A stretch of 41,701 nucleotides of DNA from Spirochaetota bacterium (GTDB lineage: Bacteria; Spirochaetota; Spirochaetia; DTKZ01). The stretch covers positions 1 to 41,701 of the forward strand of contig JAOABU010000021.1 in assembly GCA_026418195.1 (NCBI GenBank), in the 5' to 3' direction. Shown one piece after another: positions 28,537-38,965 of this stretch. Under the pieces are notes generated by a model. That model did not search any database, was not told the DNA's origin, and worked only from the letters and a program-made list of their open reading frames with translations. The position numbers and the translations under genes are program-made. Each line of letters starts with the position of its first letter. The stretch's first letter is position 1.

Positions 28537-30273
28537 ATGGACATTTCACCCCTCCAAGAAGCCAGGTATGCGTACAAACCCAAAGTACCACCTTTATTGA
28601 AGAAGTCTGTGTCCTCCATAACCGTTGAGCTAGGGAAACCTACCGAAGCTCTCACAGATCGCAAAGAGTTGAAAGCTATCTTCAAACACACGTATGGGCA
28701 GCCCATAGCTACCCTCGTACCCGGGAAAAACTCTAATGCTTCTGCAAGGATCAATGTAGGGGTCATCCTTTCCGGAGGGCAAGCTCCAGGAGGGCATAAC
28801 GTCATTGCAGGATTGTTTGATGGTATCAAGAAAGGGAATCCCGCTTCCAAACTGATCGGGTTTTTAGGAGGCCCTTCGGGGATTATCAAGGACAAGGCCA
28901 TCGAGATCACCGCAAAATTAGTTGATCAGTATAGAAACACGGGCGGATTCGATATCATTGGTTCAGGCCGAACGAAGATCGAAACCGAAGAACAGTTCAC
29001 CGCAACCCTAGCTACCGCAAAGAAACGAAAACTCAACGCCATCGTTATCATCGGGGGTGATGATTCCAACACGAACGCCGCAGTTCTTGCTGAGTACTTC
29101 CGGGAAAAGGGTGAACCCATACAGGTGATCGGAGTCCCTAAAACGATCGATGGGGACCTAAAGAATGAATATGTGGAAACCTCCTTCGGGTTCGATACAG
29201 CGGTGAAAACCTACTCCGAGTTGATTGGCAATATCGCTCGGGATGCCAATTCTGCAAAAAAGTACTGGCATTTCATCAAGTTGATGGGGCGGGCCGCTAG
29301 CCATATCTGCCTGGAATGCGCCTTGCAGACTCAACCGAACATCGCTCTCATTTCCGAGGAGATAGAGGCAAAGAATCAAACCTTGAAGGATGTAGTGGAA
29401 TACATCTGCTCCGTCATCGTCAAACGGGCAGAAAAAGGGGAAAACTTCGGAATAGTTTTAGTCCCAGAGGGCCTAATCGAGTTCATCCCCGAAATGAAGA
29501 AACTTATCTCGGAAATTAACGATATCCTGGCTCACAAGAATACTGAGTTCTCCTCTCTTGAGCCCGGCCAACCTCAGATCGATTTCATTACAGGACAACT
29601 CTCTATAGAATCTCAAGCTGTGTTTTCTTCCCTTCCAAAGGAGATCCAGTCCCAGCTCCTGATGGACCGAGACCCGCATGGAAACGTACAGGTATCCCGA
29701 ATCGAGACAGAGAAGCTACTCATTACCTTGGTAGAAGCTCGATTGAAAGAAATGAAAACTGCAGGCTCCTATACTGGCAGCTTCAGTTATCAGAGTCATT
29801 TCTTGGGGTACGAGGGAAGATCCGCTTTCCCATCCAACTTCGATGCCGATTACTGCTACTCCCTTGGTTTCACCGCGTTTCTCCTTATAGCTAACGGTCT
29901 TTCGGGTTACATCTCCTCTATCCGGAATCTAGCAAGACCAGCTGTGGAATGGGTTGCGGGTGGAATCCCCCTCACCATGATGATGAACCTTGAACGGAGG
30001 CATGGGAAGGAAAAACCAGTCATTAAAAAAGCCCTAGTGGACTTAAAAGGGAAACCCTTCAAAACCTTTGCTGCCAAACGAGAGAAATGGGCTCTCAGTA
30101 CATCCTACCTATGCCCTGGTGCAATTCAATACTTTGGTCCGGATGAAGTTTGCAACATGCCCACAAAGACCCTTCTTCTCGAGGCAAAACCCTTAAAACC
30201 CTCAGGCACTGGTACTAAAGCCAAGAGGAGCAATACAAATAAGAATAAAGTGAAGGAGAAGCCGGAAAAGTAG
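28537..30273 (+). CDS. pfp: Pyrophosphate-dependent 6-phosphofructokinase (long type)
   Basis: A 578-residue glycolytic enzyme interconverting fructose 6-phosphate and fructose 1,6-bisphosphate with PPi/Pi. The long form, as in plants and spirochaetes, is clear from the length and from [21 protein letters not shown] and FGFDTAV. PPi use is supported by Asp in GGDDS (173-177) and Lys202 in PKTIDGDL, the two positions that separate PPi- from ATP-dependent enzymes. [19 protein letters not shown] and the C-terminal YEGRS.FPSNFD are also conserved. The tail of about 25 residues is Lys/Asn-rich. It ends 9 bases from a convergent PfkB-type kinase gene. Confidence 0.93.
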
Positions 30274-30282
30274 GTCTTCGCT

Positions 30283-31236
30283 TCAACGGATACGACCCGG
30301 TCTAACATGGACCGCATTGAGAAAAGCTACTCGATGGGCCTCTCGGATGTATCCTTCTAGGCCAGCCTGGAACACTTCGGAAGAAGGCGCAGGAAAGCCT
30401 TCCTCCTTCCAGGCTTTTAGGAACCCAGCTAAAAACGCATCCCCACAGCCTGTGGTATTTAACACACGAAGGTTGATATCCGAGTACACAGGTGCATGGA
30501 ACACATTGCCTCGATTGTAAAACAGGGTATCTTCTTTTCCATTGGTGGTTATACAAACAACCCCATACTCTTCTGCCAGCCGGGAGAATTCCTCTTCCAC
30601 CCGAAACATCAACCTATTATCCCGAATTTGTTCCTTCTCGGGTGACTTTCCTAAAAAGGTACTGATAAACTCGGCCAAGTTCGTTTTTACTACGTCAGGT
30701 CGATAGGGCAAACAATCGATGAGATCCTTCCCCCGAATATCTAGGATCACCCGTTTTCCAGCTTCCTTTGCTTGTAGCACGAACTCTGCATAGAGGGTTC
30801 CCGTGTAACCCGGGGCACGGGTTCCACTGATTACCACACAATCGGATTCTGGCAGGAGGGTTTGAAAACGGTCCCGTACATCCTTCTCTGTATCGGGTGA
30901 CACAGGTTTTGCTTCCTCTACCAACTCAGTGGTGGTACCTTTCTCTAAGTTTAGTAGGGTAGTACAGAAACGAACCTCTGAACCTGAGTCAGGGGCTATA
31001 ATTCGAAGGATGTCCTGTTCTGCAAGGGTTAAAAATAAATTTCGTAACATTCCTCCGGCATGGGTCAAATGAATGGTCGGGATTTGCAGTTGTTCCAACA
31101 CCCGTGCCACATTTACCCCTTTTCCTGAAGCATCAAGATAGTAGGTAGGCGTACGGTTTACCTCCCCTTCCCGCAAGGAAGAAAAGACAAGGGTCTTCTG
31201 CAGGGTAGGGTTCAGACATACCACTAGAACCATCAT
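30283..31236 (-). CDS. PfkB-family sugar kinase (1-phosphofructokinase/tagatose-6-P kinase type)
   Basis: A 317-residue ribokinase-fold kinase. The N-terminus VVCLNPTLQKTLVF and the substrate loop DASGKGVNVARVLEQL (35-50) resemble the FruK/LacC branch, which phosphorylates sugar phosphates. The ATP/anion-hole signature is NTTGCGDAFLAGF (260-272) with catalytic Asp266; the usual GAGD reads GCGD. The exact substrate is uncertain. The start overlaps the stop of the EamA gene by 4 bases (ATGA), so three genes (alcohol dehydrogenase, transporter, kinase) form one operon, suggesting uptake and processing of a small carbon compound. Confidence 0.88.
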   Translation of the reverse strand: MMVLVVCLNPTLQKTLVFSSLREGEVNRTPTYYLDASGKGVNVARVLEQLQIPTIHLTHAGGMLRNLFLTLAEQDILRIIAPDSGSEVRFCTTLLNLEKGTTTELVEEAKPVSPDTEKDVRDRFQTLLPESDCVVISGTRAPGYTGTLYAEFVLQAKEAGKRVILDIRGKDLIDCLPYRPDVVKTNLAEFISTFLGKSPEKEQIRDNRLMFRVEEEFSRLAEEYGVVCITTNGKEDTLFYNRGNVFHAPVYSDINLRVLNTTGCGDAFLAGFLKAWKEEGFPAPSSEVFQAGLEGYIREAHRVAFLNAVHVRPGRIR

Positions 31237-32075
31237 GTTTTCCGGAGTCGATAAGCTGACATGATAGAGGAAAAGGTCACAGCAAGCACGATCAAACCTC
31301 CTCCCATCAGGGCATTTCGGGTAGGGGCTTCACCAAGGACCAGAAACACCCATAGAGGGTTCAGAATCGGTTCTAATGTGGTAATAAGCATTGCTTGAAT
31401 TGTGTTGATCCTTTTAATTCCCCGAGCGAACAGGACAGAAGAAAGACCAATCTGAAAAAATCCCAACACCAAAAGGGAGATCCATCCGGAACTTGACAAA
31501 GCAGGGGGATGGGAGAGTATCGAGGGTAGGGAGAAGAGAAACACTATCAGATGGGAAAGGAGGATCGATTCTACAGGGGAACCTGATTTCTGCATCCGCA
31601 TAAAGATAGCATAAAAGGCAAAAGTGAAACCGCTTCCTATGGCTAACAGGTTTCCTAAGGAGTTACCTGGGGAGACCTTTTCCCTGAAAAAAAGGGCCAT
31701 CCCACATAAAATCATCACCAGACCGACCCAATGTTCCCACTGGGGATGCTCCTTTAAGAGGATCCAGGCAAAAATGGCTACATACAAAGGAGCTCCATAC
31801 TGTAAGAGAATCGCGTTTGCCGACGTGGTAAGCTTATTCGCATATACGAAAAGGATCATGGTTCCTGCATTACAGAGGGCAGCTAAGATCTGCGGAGCCG
31901 AGAACGTGATCTTTGGTTTCCGTATAAGTAGAAGAATCGTGAGGCCACCTAGCAAACTTCGGGCGCCCGCAATTCCCAGAGGAGTCCAATCGACTAATTT
32001 AATGAACAGTCCTCCTAAACTCCAAAGGAAAGCGCAAAAAACGAGGGAGAGGATGGCGATAACCGTGGGATGCAT
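31233..32075 (-). CDS. EamA/DMT-family transporter
   Basis: A 280-residue inner-membrane protein with about ten transmembrane helices arranged as two EamA repeats (LSLVFCAFLWSLGGLFIKLVDWTPLGIAGARSLLGGLTILLLIR in repeat 1, IGSGFTFAFYAIFMRMQKSG...LEPILNPLWVFLVLGEAPTRNALMGGGLIVLAV in repeat 2). Such proteins export or import small metabolites; the substrate cannot be told from sequence. It overlaps the alcohol dehydrogenase stop by one base (TGATG) and the kinase start by 4 bases, so all three are translationally coupled. Confidence 0.9.
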   Translation of the reverse strand: MHPTVIAILSLVFCAFLWSLGGLFIKLVDWTPLGIAGARSLLGGLTILLLIRKPKITFSAPQILAALCNAGTMILFVYANKLTTSANAILLQYGAPLYVAIFAWILLKEHPQWEHWVGLVMILCGMALFFREKVSPGNSLGNLLAIGSGFTFAFYAIFMRMQKSGSPVESILLSHLIVFLFSLPSILSHPPALSSSGWISLLVLGFFQIGLSSVLFARGIKRINTIQAMLITTLEPILNPLWVFLVLGEAPTRNALMGGGLIVLAVTFSSIMSAYRLRKT

Positions 32076-33265
32076 CAGTACCTATCCTTAAGAATTGTTT
32101 CGATGTCTTGTACGGTGAGGGGTATGGGGTGATACTTAGCTTCTGTCTTTGATGCAATCATGGAAAGATCGGACTCCTTTAACCCTAACTCTCGCAAAAG
32201 GGGCATTTTCGTTTCCGTACTGAACCGCTCCAATGTCTTGATTAAGAGTGCTGCATTCCCATTATCACTACCGGCATCCTTCCCGCTCAAGGCCATTCCA
32301 GCTCGAGCGTATCGCTTCAGTACAGAATCTTCCGAAGGATCATCCATCCGCATGGCTCTGCTAACGGTGAACCTTGTAGCTGAAACGACCAGGCTTCCAC
32401 AAACTATCCCATGAGGGATGGGAAACAATCCACCCATAGGAGACGCAATACCATGTACCACTCCCAGACCTGCCTGAGCAAGACATACCCCTGAGATATA
32501 GGCAGCATATGCCATCTGAGATCTCGCTACTAAGTTCCTGCCGTCCCTGTAAGCAGTTAGGAATCCTTTTCCGGCTAATTCGAGGGCTTTCAGTGATAGC
32601 CCGTCTGTAAAAGGATTGGCCCTTGTACATGTATAGGCCTCCAATAGTTGCGTGATGGCATCCAACCCCGAGGCAGCAGTAACCTCTGGCGGACAAGAAA
32701 TGGTCAGTTCAGGATCCAGTATGGCTACATCAGGGACAAAGTTGTCGTGACGAAGGGACTTTTTGAATCCCGAAGGGCCGATTCGGCTAATTACCGCGTT
32801 CTTCGTGGCTTCAGCACCTGTACCAGAGGTCGTGGGAATCGCAATAAGAGGAAGCCGGGTACCCAATGGTTTTCGAGTTCCCACCCCTTCAAGATACTCT
32901 TGAACAGAACCCTCCATCGTGTAAAGAGCCGCTACTGCCTTTCCAGTATCGATCACGCTTCCCCCTCCAATGGCAACCACACCCTCTGTACGGGACTGAT
33001 CCTTTACCGCTTTCAGGGTTGCCACAATGGAATCCACTGTTTCAGGGGACGGTTCTCCTACCACAGAAAATTCCGTATACCTGATATGGGCCTTCTTTAG
33101 ACTTTCGATCAAGCGATCATACGCGGGACTCTGTTTGAAAGACCTACCTCCTAAGATCAAAGCTATATTTTTTAATGATCGATCTTGTAGTATCTGGGAC
33201 AGCTGTGAACTACCTCCCGCTCCAAAGCGGAGTTCTGGAAGTCGGGTGATTTGAAAGGAATTCAT
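32075..33265 (-). CDS. Iron-containing alcohol dehydrogenase family protein
   Basis: A 396-residue group III alcohol dehydrogenase. Motifs are the NAD-binding VAIGGGSVIDTGKAVA, PTTSGTGAEATKNAVI, and the metal region SGLDAITQLLEAYTC with GVVHGIASPMGGLFPIPHG. In classical members the metal ligands are Asp, His, His, His; here the first His (DALTH) is Gln (DAITQ), while the two later histidines remain. This Gln occurs in a subgroup of the family, and the bound metal is not known. The ATG at 33265 has no SD; the promoter lies 8 bases upstream. First gene of the operon with the EamA transporter and PfkB kinase. Substrate unknown. Confidence 0.9.
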   Translation of the reverse strand: MNSFQITRLPELRFGAGGSSQLSQILQDRSLKNIALILGGRSFKQSPAYDRLIESLKKAHIRYTEFSVVGEPSPETVDSIVATLKAVKDQSRTEGVVAIGGGSVIDTGKAVAALYTMEGSVQEYLEGVGTRKPLGTRLPLIAIPTTSGTGAEATKNAVISRIGPSGFKKSLRHDNFVPDVAILDPELTISCPPEVTAASGLDAITQLLEAYTCTRANPFTDGLSLKALELAGKGFLTAYRDGRNLVARSQMAYAAYISGVCLAQAGLGVVHGIASPMGGLFPIPHGIVCGSLVVSATRFTVSRAMRMDDPSEDSVLKRYARAGMALSGKDAGSDNGNAALLIKTLERFSTETKMPLLRELGLKESDLSMIASKTEAKYHPIPLTVQDIETILKDRY

Positions 33266-33273
33266 GGATAGAA

Positions 33274-33302
33274 ACTGTACCGAAAAAATCGATTTAGGTA
33301 AA
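33274..33302 (-). promoter_or_regulatory. Leaderless promoter of the alcohol dehydrogenase operon
   Basis: On the minus strand TTTACC (33297-33302) and TACAGT (33274-33279) are 17 bp apart. Eight bases separate the -10 from the ATG at 33265, and no SD is present. The -35 overlaps that of the divergent promoter by two bases. Confidence 0.6.
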
Positions 33303-33321
33303 GCAAAAAGGATGATATACT
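33293..33321 (+). promoter_or_regulatory. Leaderless promoter of the dCMP-deaminase fusion gene
   Basis: TTTAGG (33293-33298) and TATACT (33316-33321) with a 17-bp spacer; seven bases then lead to the ATG at 33329. There is no correctly spaced SD. The -35 shares bases 33297-33298 with the opposite promoter, so RNA polymerase can probably serve only one side at a time. Confidence 0.6.
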
Positions 33322-33328
33322 TCTTTCC

Positions 33329-34921
33329 ATGATTCCAACTAAAATTATCGTTCTAGATACCCTTCCTCCCAGTGAACAGGGTTTCCATCACTGTATAGTA
33401 GTGAGGGATATAAGGGATCTACCCGAGGCGATACAGGATCCAACTCCGCTTGTTTTTTTCCTGTTGGATCCCATGGACTCCTTCACTGAGCAAGAAATCA
33501 TACCATCCCGTACTCTTGAAGGGACACAAAACCAGCATGACTCAGGTATCCTTGAGAGGGCGTTTGTTACCTTTTTAAAAACGGAGGTTTCCCCACTCGG
33601 ATCTACACAGGTAGCTTCTGTACTAAACCACCTCCAATCTCAATGGGGACCTTTCACTGTTTCGATGGGGATTTCCCTTCTCACCGAAGAGGTAGGGACA
33701 TGGGACTCCTATAGAACATTGCACTTACCTACCGAACCAGAAAAAACAATAAAAACGGTTTTGGAACTTGATTCAGATCAATGGTACCAATTCAAGGGTA
33801 CCTCACAACAGCTGCAATCCTTCTTTAAACTCCTTCCTCTTCTTTCCCAAATAGGGAAACGCTTTCTGTTTTCAGGTAGTGATCAAGTGTTACACGCACT
33901 ATACCATACCCTTATCCCCTCCCCTGCGGCTGATGTTTCCCAGAATACAAGGAACCCTCTTGGGTCATGGAGCAAGAAAGGGAGCCGAGGATTGATCATT
34001 GTGGACAAGCCCTTAGGGACATTAGAGTTGAAGGATGAGCGGATTACTTATCTCGATCTCCGATCGGACACAGAGAATCTAGAGGACACGATCGCAGAGG
34101 AGCCGTTTAGTAGAACTGTTCAGAGAACCTTACAAGAAGGCAAAACCCTATGCATCCCTATCCATCCAACCGACTCATCCATCCTTCGATGTTCCCCGTT
34201 GGTACAACAAATAGGAAAAGAGATACAGTTCCTTCTATTTTGGGGAACGCAATGGACCGAAAGGAATGTGGCCATCCCATTAAACCTACCTATCTATCGA
34301 ATCATTGGTTCTGTAGGGCAAGGGAAAGGGTTGATCATGCAAGGCTCCATTGATCCTTCGACTAGCCCTTTGCCCATCATCCTGGCTCATGGGGAAACGG
34401 GGTTCACGTTGCAGGAATTGTTTTACTACCTCTCTCCACAGGTACGGATTCGGCCTTCCTGGGACGATTATTTTCTGGGAATCGCTCGTGCGGTAGCAGA
34501 GCGAGCAACCTGTGATCGGGGTAGGAGCGGTTGTGTGATTGTACGCGACAAGGCAATTCTGGTAACCGGATACGTTGGTTCACCTACAGGACTTCCCCAC
34601 TGTGATGAAGAGGGTCACCAAATGAAAAAGATGATCCATGAGGATGGACGCATTACCCAACATTGCGTGCGTACGGTACATGCAGAGCAGAATGCCATCT
34701 GCCAAGCGGCCAAGTATGGAATTTCATTAAATGGCGGGACCTTGTATTGCAAAATGACCCCCTGTCGTACCTGCGCCATGCTCATCATCAACTGTGGGAT
34801 TCGGCGGGTAGTATGCGAGTACCGCTACCATGCAGGAGGAGAATCGGAAGAATTGTTTCGACTCGCGGGAATAAACCTTACATTCAAACATCCCGAGGTT
34901 CTTCCCTATTCCGATCAGTAG
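33329..34921 (+). CDS. dCMP deaminase-domain protein with unknown 370-residue N-terminal region
   Basis: A 530-residue protein. The C-terminal part (about 377-525) is a complete deoxycytidylate deaminase: RPSWDDYFLGIARAVAERATC, VGSPTGLPHC, catalytic HAE (451-453) in VRTVHAEQNAI, and zinc cysteines 479 and 482 in TPCRTCAML. Ordinary dCMP deaminases have about 150 residues. The first 370 residues match nothing I know: no Walker A, no signal peptide, no membrane helix, although alternating strands and helices (TKIIVLD, LVFFLL, RGLIIVDKP, KTLCIPIHP, IQFLLFWGT, IYRIIGSVGQGKG) suggest alpha/beta domains. The design recalls AvcD/DcdV anti-phage proteins of similar length. It could equally supply dUMP for dTMP synthesis with built-in regulation. 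Confidence 0.85.
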   Translation: MIPTKIIVLDTLPPSEQGFHHCIVVRDIRDLPEAIQDPTPLVFFLLDPMDSFTEQEIIPSRTLEGTQNQHDSGILERAFVTFLKTEVSPLGSTQVASVLNHLQSQWGPFTVSMGISLLTEEVGTWDSYRTLHLPTEPEKTIKTVLELDSDQWYQFKGTSQQLQSFFKLLPLLSQIGKRFLFSGSDQVLHALYHTLIPSPAADVSQNTRNPLGSWSKKGSRGLIIVDKPLGTLELKDERITYLDLRSDTENLEDTIAEEPFSRTVQRTLQEGKTLCIPIHPTDSSILRCSPLVQQIGKEIQFLLFWGTQWTERNVAIPLNLPIYRIIGSVGQGKGLIMQGSIDPSTSPLPIILAHGETGFTLQELFYYLSPQVRIRPSWDDYFLGIARAVAERATCDRGRSGCVIVRDKAILVTGYVGSPTGLPHCDEEGHQMKKMIHEDGRITQHCVRTVHAEQNAICQAAKYGISLNGGTLYCKMTPCRTCAMLIINCGIRRVVCEYRYHAGGESEELFRLAGINLTFKHPEVLPYSDQ

Positions 34922-35026: not shown

Positions 35027-35743
35027 ATGAAGAACCTCGCACTCTGCTTGTTTTTGATGGGGGCAGTAGTAGCGGCGCCCATTTTCGCCCAAACCGTCAT
35101 TGCACAGGATGATTTTTCCAAATTAGGAGATTGGAAGCCTGCGTATGGTACATGGAATGCTAATGGCGCACTGGTACAGTCCGACATCAAAGCGGGGATG
35201 GCTCGAATTGACCGACCTCTCCCGCAATCGGGCGTATATTTGTTGGAGTTTACTGCAAAATATATAGATGGCGGGTATGCGGATCCTAAAGCGTATGTAT
35301 CCGGGCCCTACCATGGAGGTTTTGGAATCCACATTGGAGTAGACAAACCCGCGCCAGGTAAAGCATGGGGAAATGGTAAATCTTACCTCCTCTGGATCAA
35401 CTATGACGATACCGTACCACCCAATTCTCCCCACTACGGATTGCGAGCTCAAGTATACCAGAGCACTTCCAACATTAAGATGGAACTGATGCCAAACTCG
35501 AGTATAGAAATCTATCCGAGAGATGTGGTACTTCAAAACCTGAATTACCTCCAGTACGCGCTTCCTGTTAAATTGCGGGTAGACACGAACACGGGAGAAA
35601 TCCGCGTTTACGATCCCATGGAAGAAGGCTACTATTATTACTTCTACCTGGATCCCAAACTCTTGAAAGGAGCGTACGTAAGCTTCCGGACGAACAAACT
35701 AGCGATGCAGTTTGACGATTTCAAGGTAACCAAACTCGAATAG
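35027..35743 (+). CDS. Secreted protein with concanavalin/LamG-like beta-sandwich fold
   Basis: A 238-residue exported protein. The first 27 residues (MKNLALCLFLMGAVVAAPIFAQ, then TVIAQ) are a signal peptide with cleavage likely after AxA-type residues near 21. The mature part is rich in aromatic and Gly residues and resembles beta-sandwich domains found in sugar-binding proteins: DDFSKLGDWKPAYGTWNANGALVQSD, GVYLLEFTAKYIDGGY, GGFGIHIGVDK, KLRVDTNTGEIRVY and the closing AYVSFRTNKLAMQFDDFKV. It may bind polysaccharide or sit in the periplasm or outer membrane of the cell. It has its own promoter and is followed by a strong hairpin. Fold assignment is inference from pattern. Confidence 0.75.
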   Translation: MKNLALCLFLMGAVVAAPIFAQTVIAQDDFSKLGDWKPAYGTWNANGALVQSDIKAGMARIDRPLPQSGVYLLEFTAKYIDGGYADPKAYVSGPYHGGFGIHIGVDKPAPGKAWGNGKSYLLWINYDDTVPPNSPHYGLRAQVYQSTSNIKMELMPNSSIEIYPRDVVLQNLNYLQYALPVKLRVDTNTGEIRVYDPMEEGYYYYFYLDPKLLKGAYVSFRTNKLAMQFDDFKVTKLE

Positions 35744-37777: not shown

Positions 37778-38167
37778 TTATAGAAGCCGCTTTTCTCCTT
37801 CAAGGGATCTAGCTTCTGTAATATCTTGGGTTATCTCCACGGTCCCTAGATAGGTACCGTCTTTGTCCCGAACAGGAAAGTAATCAATTTTAATAAACCT
37901 CCCCTTATGCTGGATCCAGAAGGGCGCCTTGTCGAGGGTTCCCGTTTTGAACCCGTTCAGAATAGCATTGACTTTATCCAAACTCTGGGGAGGATGACAG
38001 TTTTGCACCTTTCGGCCTAGATCCATCTTAGTCCTTGGGAAAATTCTTCCTTCCCTAGGGGTATTGAAGTACGCGACTCGATCTTCATGATCGACAAAGG
38101 ATATGTCTACGTTGAGAGCATCCAACAAGGCCTCAATCGTCTCAATGGGTAAATTTTTCAAATTCAT
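37778..38167 (-). CDS. Single-domain PAS protein (DUF438-associated type)
   Basis: A 129-residue protein made of one PAS domain. The sequence [54 protein letters not shown]...[35 protein letters not shown] matches the PAS domain normally found at the C-terminal end of DUF438-hemerythrin proteins. The NCHPPQS motif may hold a ligand or cofactor. Here the PAS unit is a separate gene, 30 bases after the DUF438-hemerythrin gene, so the three-domain protein seems split in two. AAGGGGG gives a good SD. No kinase or other output domain is attached. Confidence 0.85.
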
Positions 38168-38197
38168 GTTGCCCCCTTATCAACTTTAGTATAGCCT

Positions 38198-38965
38198 TCA
38201 TACCTTGAAGTATCCCAAGGCATCGCACTCCTCTTTGATGTCCTTCCAGTCTTCATCTGTAAGCACTTCCAATGCAGCCTGATACAGGATATTTTTTTCC
38301 TTCAATGTATGATTCGCAAACTGCTCTTGCAGGAGAATGCTGTTTTGTACCATCAGATCGGCAAAGGTATGGAAATCCATCTCTTCTCTTTGCTCCAACA
38401 GCTTCTTCAACTTTTTTTTCTGTTCCTTCATTTCTGTATGTTCCATCCACATGATAGCAGGAGGCTGCTCCAATCCGTGCTTCTCAAGTAGAGGGAATAA
38501 GGTGTTTTCTTGCCGTACGTTGTGATTCTCCGCCTCCAGAAGTTTTTCAATCAGCTCGGTTAACCGTTCCAATTCCCTTGCTGCGTTTTTAAAGCTTCCT
38601 TTCTTGTTCAATTCACTGGCCCTTGTACGTAACTCGTCCATTAAGGCGAGAATTATGCGGTGATCTTCCTGAAACCTGGCAATAGGATGACCATCTGGTA
38701 CAGAGATTTCATTCTGTTCGATAGTGCTTCGGAATAGCTCTAGATGAACATCGCAAGCGGAAACAAGGTCCTGTTGAGTGAAGCCTTCCGCAATTAGTTC
38801 CTGCTCTGCTTGAGCGATTAAGAGGGGAGTCGCTTTTGAGAGGAGCCCTTTAAACTCTGCCCGTGCTTTATCTAGTTCTTCCGGAGAGGTACCACCCTTG
38901 ATTCTCTTGAGTAAAGCCTTCAATCCCTCTTTTACGGGATTCTCTGCCGGGGAGGTTTTTCCCAT
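38198..38965 (-). CDS. DUF438-hemerythrin protein
   Basis: A 255-residue protein. Residues about 10-80 form the DUF438 region (VKEGLKALLKRIKGGTSPEELDKARAEFKGLL...EGFTQQDLVSACDVHLELF). Residues about 90-240 are a hemerythrin (HHE) four-helix bundle with candidate iron ligands in DGHPIARFQEDHR, AENHNVRQENTLFPLLEKHG, MWMEHTEMKE and FANHTLKEKNILY. Such di-iron proteins sense or bind O2 or NO, or help repair Fe-S and di-iron sites. A strong SD (GGAGGCAGGAG) precedes the ATG. It sits between a DUF1858/DUF2249 gene and the PAS gene, and all appear cotranscribed. Confidence 0.88.
   Translation of the reverse strand: MGKTSPAENPVKEGLKALLKRIKGGTSPEELDKARAEFKGLLSKATPLLIAQAEQELIAEGFTQQDLVSACDVHLELFRSTIEQNEISVPDGHPIARFQEDHRIILALMDELRTRASELNKKGSFKNAARELERLTELIEKLLEAENHNVRQENTLFPLLEKHGLEQPPAIMWMEHTEMKEQKKKLKKLLEQREEMDFHTFADLMVQNSILLQEQFANHTLKEKNILYQAALEVLTDEDWKDIKEECDALGYFKV

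Follow-up and report, generated by a model that had tools for sequence, protein, structure and literature searches.

The window analysed here, a stretch of 41,701 nucleotides from a 3.13 Mb genome assembly, carries a single open reading frame that joins a complete dCMP deaminase to a long N-terminal region almost certainly derived from a four-carbon acid sugar kinase of the DUF1537 family. Our main reading, to which we give a probability of roughly 60%, is that the protein is a housekeeping dCMP deaminase that would feed ThyX, fused to a decayed DUF1537 kinase that is probably now a non-catalytic scaffold. It is an unusual protein architecture, most likely devoted to housekeeping rather than to anti-virus defence. 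The features assigned in the window are as follows (residue numbers refer to the fused protein).

33329..34921, + strand: fused ORF of 530 aa, putative degenerate DUF1537-kinase domain plus dCMP deaminase, with the same layout in three sister genomes
33329..34429, + strand: predicted degenerate four-carbon acid sugar kinase (pseudokinase) domain, residues 1-367, from profile matches, hhalign, shuffles and a reciprocal match
33338..33928, + strand: probable remnant of the sugar-binding lobe (SBD_N-like), residues 4-200, from a joint alignment, lacking about 65 residues that the kinases have
33356..33373, + strand: DTLPPS, residues 10-15, at the lost kinase DDDPTG position, from alignments
33983..34429, + strand: probable remnant of the nucleotide-binding lobe (NBD_C-like), residues 219-367, from hhalign and the joint alignment
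34241..34258, + strand: WGTQWT, residues 305-310, at the lost kinase KGGITS position; W305, G306 and W309 are invariant in the fusions
34448..34918, + strand: dCMP deaminase domain, residues 374-530 (PF00383, E = 1e-23)
34679..34687, + strand: H451-A-E453, zinc ligand and catalytic glutamate, invariant in the alignment of the four fusions (A1)
34760..34774, + strand: P478-C-R-T-C482, zinc cysteines, invariant in A1 except for R480

The fused ORF starts with ATG. The same single open frame is present in three sister genomes, recorded as uncultured Spirochaeta/Spirochaetales MAGs and each from a separate assembly, so an assembly or frameshift artefact is unlikely. At the junction of the four fusions, no in-frame ATG, GTG or TTG near the deaminase is common to all; a fused product is therefore expected, and nothing points to a deaminase made separately. 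The original prediction, made from the letters of the window, had described a complete deaminase domain (HAE, PCxxC) behind an N-terminal region of unknown type making up about 70% of the protein. Both the domain and the proportion were confirmed, and residues 1-367 indeed gave no Pfam match at E up to 10 (one sister gave a single chance match), but the region can be identified as a degenerate DUF1537 kinase, an identity that only a profile of the four related sequences reveals.

A search of 395 class genomes with that profile (A2), made from the four N-terminal regions, matched 10 non-self genomes at an E-value limit of 0.01, and 9 of the 10 matches lie in an ORF that contains a KIIVLDDDPTG-type motif. 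These nine belong to an alignment of 13 kinases (A3), every one of which matches PF07005 (SBD_N) and PF17042 (NBD_C); this identifies the A3 proteins as four-carbon acid sugar kinases of the DUF1537 family. In a profile-profile comparison, hhalign aligned A2 and A3 with 98.5% probability and P 3.3e-15 over 342 columns, co-linear end to end, while the best of 60 column shuffles reached 2.6% probability and the two reversals 0.1% and 0.4%. The N-terminal region of one sister, G003, reached P 4e-16 by profile on its own, and plain BLAST aligned it with the G251 kinase at 4e-11. Reciprocally, an A3 profile search matched the G003 fusion in two co-linear stretches (6e-8 and 5e-8). Thus, descent of the N-terminal region from DUF1537 kinases, with high divergence, appears very nearly certain on these comparisons, and the region would not be a new fold. 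The homology to the DUF1537 kinases (D-threonate/OtnK-type; solved as 4xfm and 4xfr) is co-linear and full-length; the N-terminal region differs from them in lacking the signature motifs, in being fused to a deaminase and in falling below Pfam detection.

Other searches were silent on this relationship. The PF07005 and PF17042 models detected the N-terminal region in none of the four fusions, a PDB sequence search with residues 1-367 returned no credible chain, and NCBIfam and PADLOC searches of the region gave nothing useful. AlphaFold2 models built from four sequences only had a mean pLDDT of 53 for the full protein and 55 for the N-terminal region, and Foldseek with the N-terminal model returned no structure of the DUF1537 family, all of its matches having E of 1e-3 or more. 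Its top match, the gephyrin E domain (TM 0.19, E 2e-3), was taken as chance. The missing Pfam and Foldseek matches would fit an unrelated new domain whose resemblance to DUF1537 is fortuitous, but the P value, the co-linear full-length alignment, the clean shuffles and the reciprocal profile matches make such a coincidence highly improbable. Genome-wide searches with PF07005 and PF17042 found only two matches, both to other, intact DUF1537 kinase genes. These are unlikely sources of the N-terminal region, as the kinases closest to it (G251, G151, G295, G263 and G267) all belong to other families.

We then compared the four fusions with the kinases at 70 kinase-invariant columns. All four fusions preserve the kinase residue at 11 of these, and only some of them do so at a further 15; of the remaining columns, 29 are replaced and 15 deleted. 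DDDPTG has become D[TD]xPP[SG] and KGGITS has become WGxxW[TN]; SRSDSTLRGH is lost, with SRS alone retained by G003; FPGNVG is absent from all four; and about 65 residues of the sugar-binding lobe, GRxT and TEFARD among them, are missing. The loss of DDDPTG, SRSDSTLRGH, KGGITS and FPGNVG marks the domain as a putative pseudokinase, and we consider it highly probable that kinase activity has been lost. The G003 fusion, which retains only VLDD and SRS of the kinase signature motifs, is the most kinase-like, so that the four species form a gradient. A GKT at residues 271-273 is invariant in the fusions, without an upstream glycine or alanine, at a position where some kinases have G[KR]T. It is no Walker A motif, and DUF1537 kinases are not P-loop proteins. 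The earlier remark that no P-loop is visible was correct: [AG]xxxxGK[ST] is absent from all four fusions.

The deaminase half is, by comparison, conventional. The PF00383 match covers residues 377-496 with 83.6 bits against a curated cut-off of 25, and in most of the class genomes with a standalone deaminase, that enzyme is 65-78% identical to the domain. Its nearest solved relative is the Streptococcus mutans dCMP deaminase 2hvv, and the full-length AlphaFold2 model retrieved the dCMP deaminases 5c2o and 2hvv in Foldseek. Conversion of dCMP to dUMP is the activity we infer for it. The standalone Spirochaetia enzymes (PF00383; solved relatives 2hvv, 2hvw and 5c2o) share the intact zinc and catalytic motifs and, in several families, an adjoining divergent Fe-alcohol dehydrogenase (Fe-ADH) gene, as in the fusion; they differ in being mostly about 160-200 aa long without such an N-terminal domain, whereas the fusion has 370 extra residues. 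No second dCMP deaminase was found in the window genome, where the fused gene is the sole deaminase match, and this genome has ThyX and no ThyA. The conversion of dCMP to dUMP would feed thymidylate synthesis by ThyX. A sole dCMP deaminase together with ThyX in the absence of ThyA points to housekeeping supply of dUMP. With the ancestral locus described below, these features favour the housekeeping fusion, one of three readings offered originally, and we regard such a role as quite probable.

Within a set of 395 class genomes, the fusion is confined to one Spirochaetales genus, where all four examined genomes have it. A search of the 60 nearest genomes found the full-length protein only in those four (the three sisters being 66, 61 and 47% identical to the window protein over the full length), and every match outside the genus covers the deaminase only. 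The deaminase is carried by 140 of the 395 class genomes at E up to 1e-20, and an open frame of more than 350 codons surrounds it in only four of these 140, all of the same genus. A family search with the N-terminal region returned the four fusions among nine genomes, plus two chance matches; weak matches in the sister genus g3 (G006) proved to be unrelated ORFs. The phylum-wide search added only two further weak matches, to residues 4-86, in frames of 480-490 aa. Divergence within the genus is uneven: the N-terminal region of the three sisters is 54, 46 and 28% identical to that of the window, and the deaminase 97, 94 and 87%.

In G004, and likewise in several further families of the class, the Fe-ADH and deaminase genes form a divergent pair that lacks the kinase part, indicating that the deaminase is ancestral at the locus and the kinase part a newcomer. 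FtsH and a downstream 238-aa protein are common to the window locus and G004. Adjacent kinase-deaminase pairs, a possible pre-fusion state, were not seen near 16 standalone deaminases or on the kinase contigs of the genomes searched. The gene for the 238-aa protein (35027-35743, + strand), which has a signal-peptide-like start and no Pfam match, lies downstream of the deaminase in the window's family and near the deaminase in a few other class genomes as well.

Selection was estimated by the Nei-Gojobori method on three usable pairs; pairs with G003 are saturated at synonymous sites. For the G000-G001 pair (dS about 0.9), dN/dS was 0.35 in the N-terminal region (bootstrap 0.27-0.46) and 0.02 in the deaminase, dN being about 15-fold higher in the former. 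Over the whole N-terminal region dN/dS was 0.35-0.37, with bootstrap upper limits near 0.5, and all estimates for five sub-blocks were below 1, one upper limit touching 0.99 (G000-G002). Estimates below 1 imply that the N-terminal region is constrained as a protein, far less tightly than the deaminase.

We propose that a DUF1537 kinase gene landed between the divergent Fe-ADH and deaminase genes in the ancestor of the genus and fused in frame with the deaminase gene. The kinase part would then have lost the motifs for substrate and nucleotide, along with a portion of the sugar-binding lobe, its core being retained under moderate purifying selection. The N-terminal domain is now most likely an appendage that catalyses nothing and serves as a scaffold for oligomerisation or stability; its start codon doubles as the only conserved start for the deaminase. 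We favour this scaffold role over sensing. Alternatively, the pseudokinase may have been repurposed as a sensor of a sugar acid, a nucleotide or another metabolite that regulates the fused deaminase allosterically. The moderate purifying selection fits a sensor as well as it fits a scaffold, dCMP deaminases are commonly allosteric, and the S. mutans enzyme has been solved with dTTP (5c2o). Invariant residues are also dense at the former active-site loops, with 11 of 20 at residues 4-23 (PPxExGFxxC) and 10 of 30 at residues 299-328 (FWGxxWxE), compared with 59 of 367 overall, in blocks picked after the alignment had been viewed. At the exact kinase-invariant columns, however, new invariants are no commoner than elsewhere (about 5 of 44), and a conserved ligand-binding domain would not usually fall below 30% identity between the deepest branches. 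A sensor is a minority reading by our estimate, at about one chance in four if put loosely, and its specific form, in which the pseudokinase gates the dCMP deaminase and couples carbon status to thymidylate precursor supply, seems somewhat less likely still. A regulatory role of the degenerate domain is nevertheless possible from its sequence; if true, sensing of a carbon metabolite or nucleotide would be a new kind of allosteric control over dUMP synthesis. A further possibility is a passive read-through leader whose frame stays open simply because the deaminase no longer has a start codon of its own. It would fit the rapid protein evolution with indels, the complete loss of catalytic motifs and the lack of any internal start conserved in the four fusions. 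The dN/dS of 0.35-0.37 and its bootstrap limits, and the conservation of core strands such as GKRFLF and FLLFWG, speak against this, and we consider it improbable.

It had also been suggested that the protein might be a variant of AvcD/DcdV, an anti-phage nucleotide-depletion enzyme, with a different N-terminal control domain. AvcD/DcdV proteins consist of an N-terminal kinase-like P-loop region and a C-terminal deaminase, about 500 aa in all, and the fusion resembles them in this two-part layout and in length. The PADLOC dCTPase and NCBIfam antiphage_deaminase models both touch its deaminase part. However, NF041025 scores 52.6 bits against a cut-off of 400, with the alignment confined to the deaminase, and the PADLOC dCTPase match spans 53 residues, again of the deaminase only. 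Walker A is missing, the N-terminus is apparently related to DUF1537 kinases and not to P-loop NTPases, and the gene encodes the sole dCMP deaminase found, at an ancestral housekeeping locus. Relatives of the N-terminal region were absent from 50,697 phage records, 72,556 plasmid records and viral contigs. Neither a defence or mobile context nor a patchy spread was observed; the same housekeeping locus is conserved in 4 of 4 examined genomes of the genus. An Rfam search of the window found no RNA, although an undescribed short RNA would escape this search; the gaps flanking the fused gene are only 63 and 105 bp and offer limited space for one. The AvcD/DcdV reading fails nearly all tests run and appears largely refuted, leaving it a very slim chance, and the housekeeping deaminase with a kinase-derived scaffold is the reading we retain. 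Resemblance to the AvcD layout can arise where a deaminase adjoins an N-terminal region of seemingly unknown type and nothing hints at defence.

To our knowledge, neither another DUF1537 pseudokinase nor a dCMP deaminase fused to one has been reported, and a literature search of open-licence papers found neither. The fusion would be a clear case in which an unrelated metabolic enzyme was captured and then stripped of its active site. As the four species stand at differing divergence, with VLDD and SRS still present in G003, the path from enzyme to pseudoenzyme may be traceable.

Several neighbouring features were recorded. A short ORF, MDRNCTEKIDLGKAKRMIYFFP, at 33264-33331 (+ strand) begins at the start of the divergent Fe-ADH gene, and its terminal TGA overlaps the ATG of the fused gene. 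Two sister genomes conserve the DNA here, AAAAATCGATTTAGGTAAAGCAAAA, and the third does so in part; the sequence is perhaps a divergent promoter or leader. At 37778-38965 (- strand), a DUF438+hemerythrin protein and a PAS_10 protein are encoded by separate adjacent genes. The two are often parts of a single polypeptide; here the split appears genuine, given a ribosome-binding-site-like sequence belonging to the PAS gene itself. Finally, the 28537-32075 region encodes a 578-aa phosphofructokinase (PF00365) on the + strand, adjoining genes for a PfkB kinase and an EamA transporter, which come after the Fe-ADH gene on the - strand.
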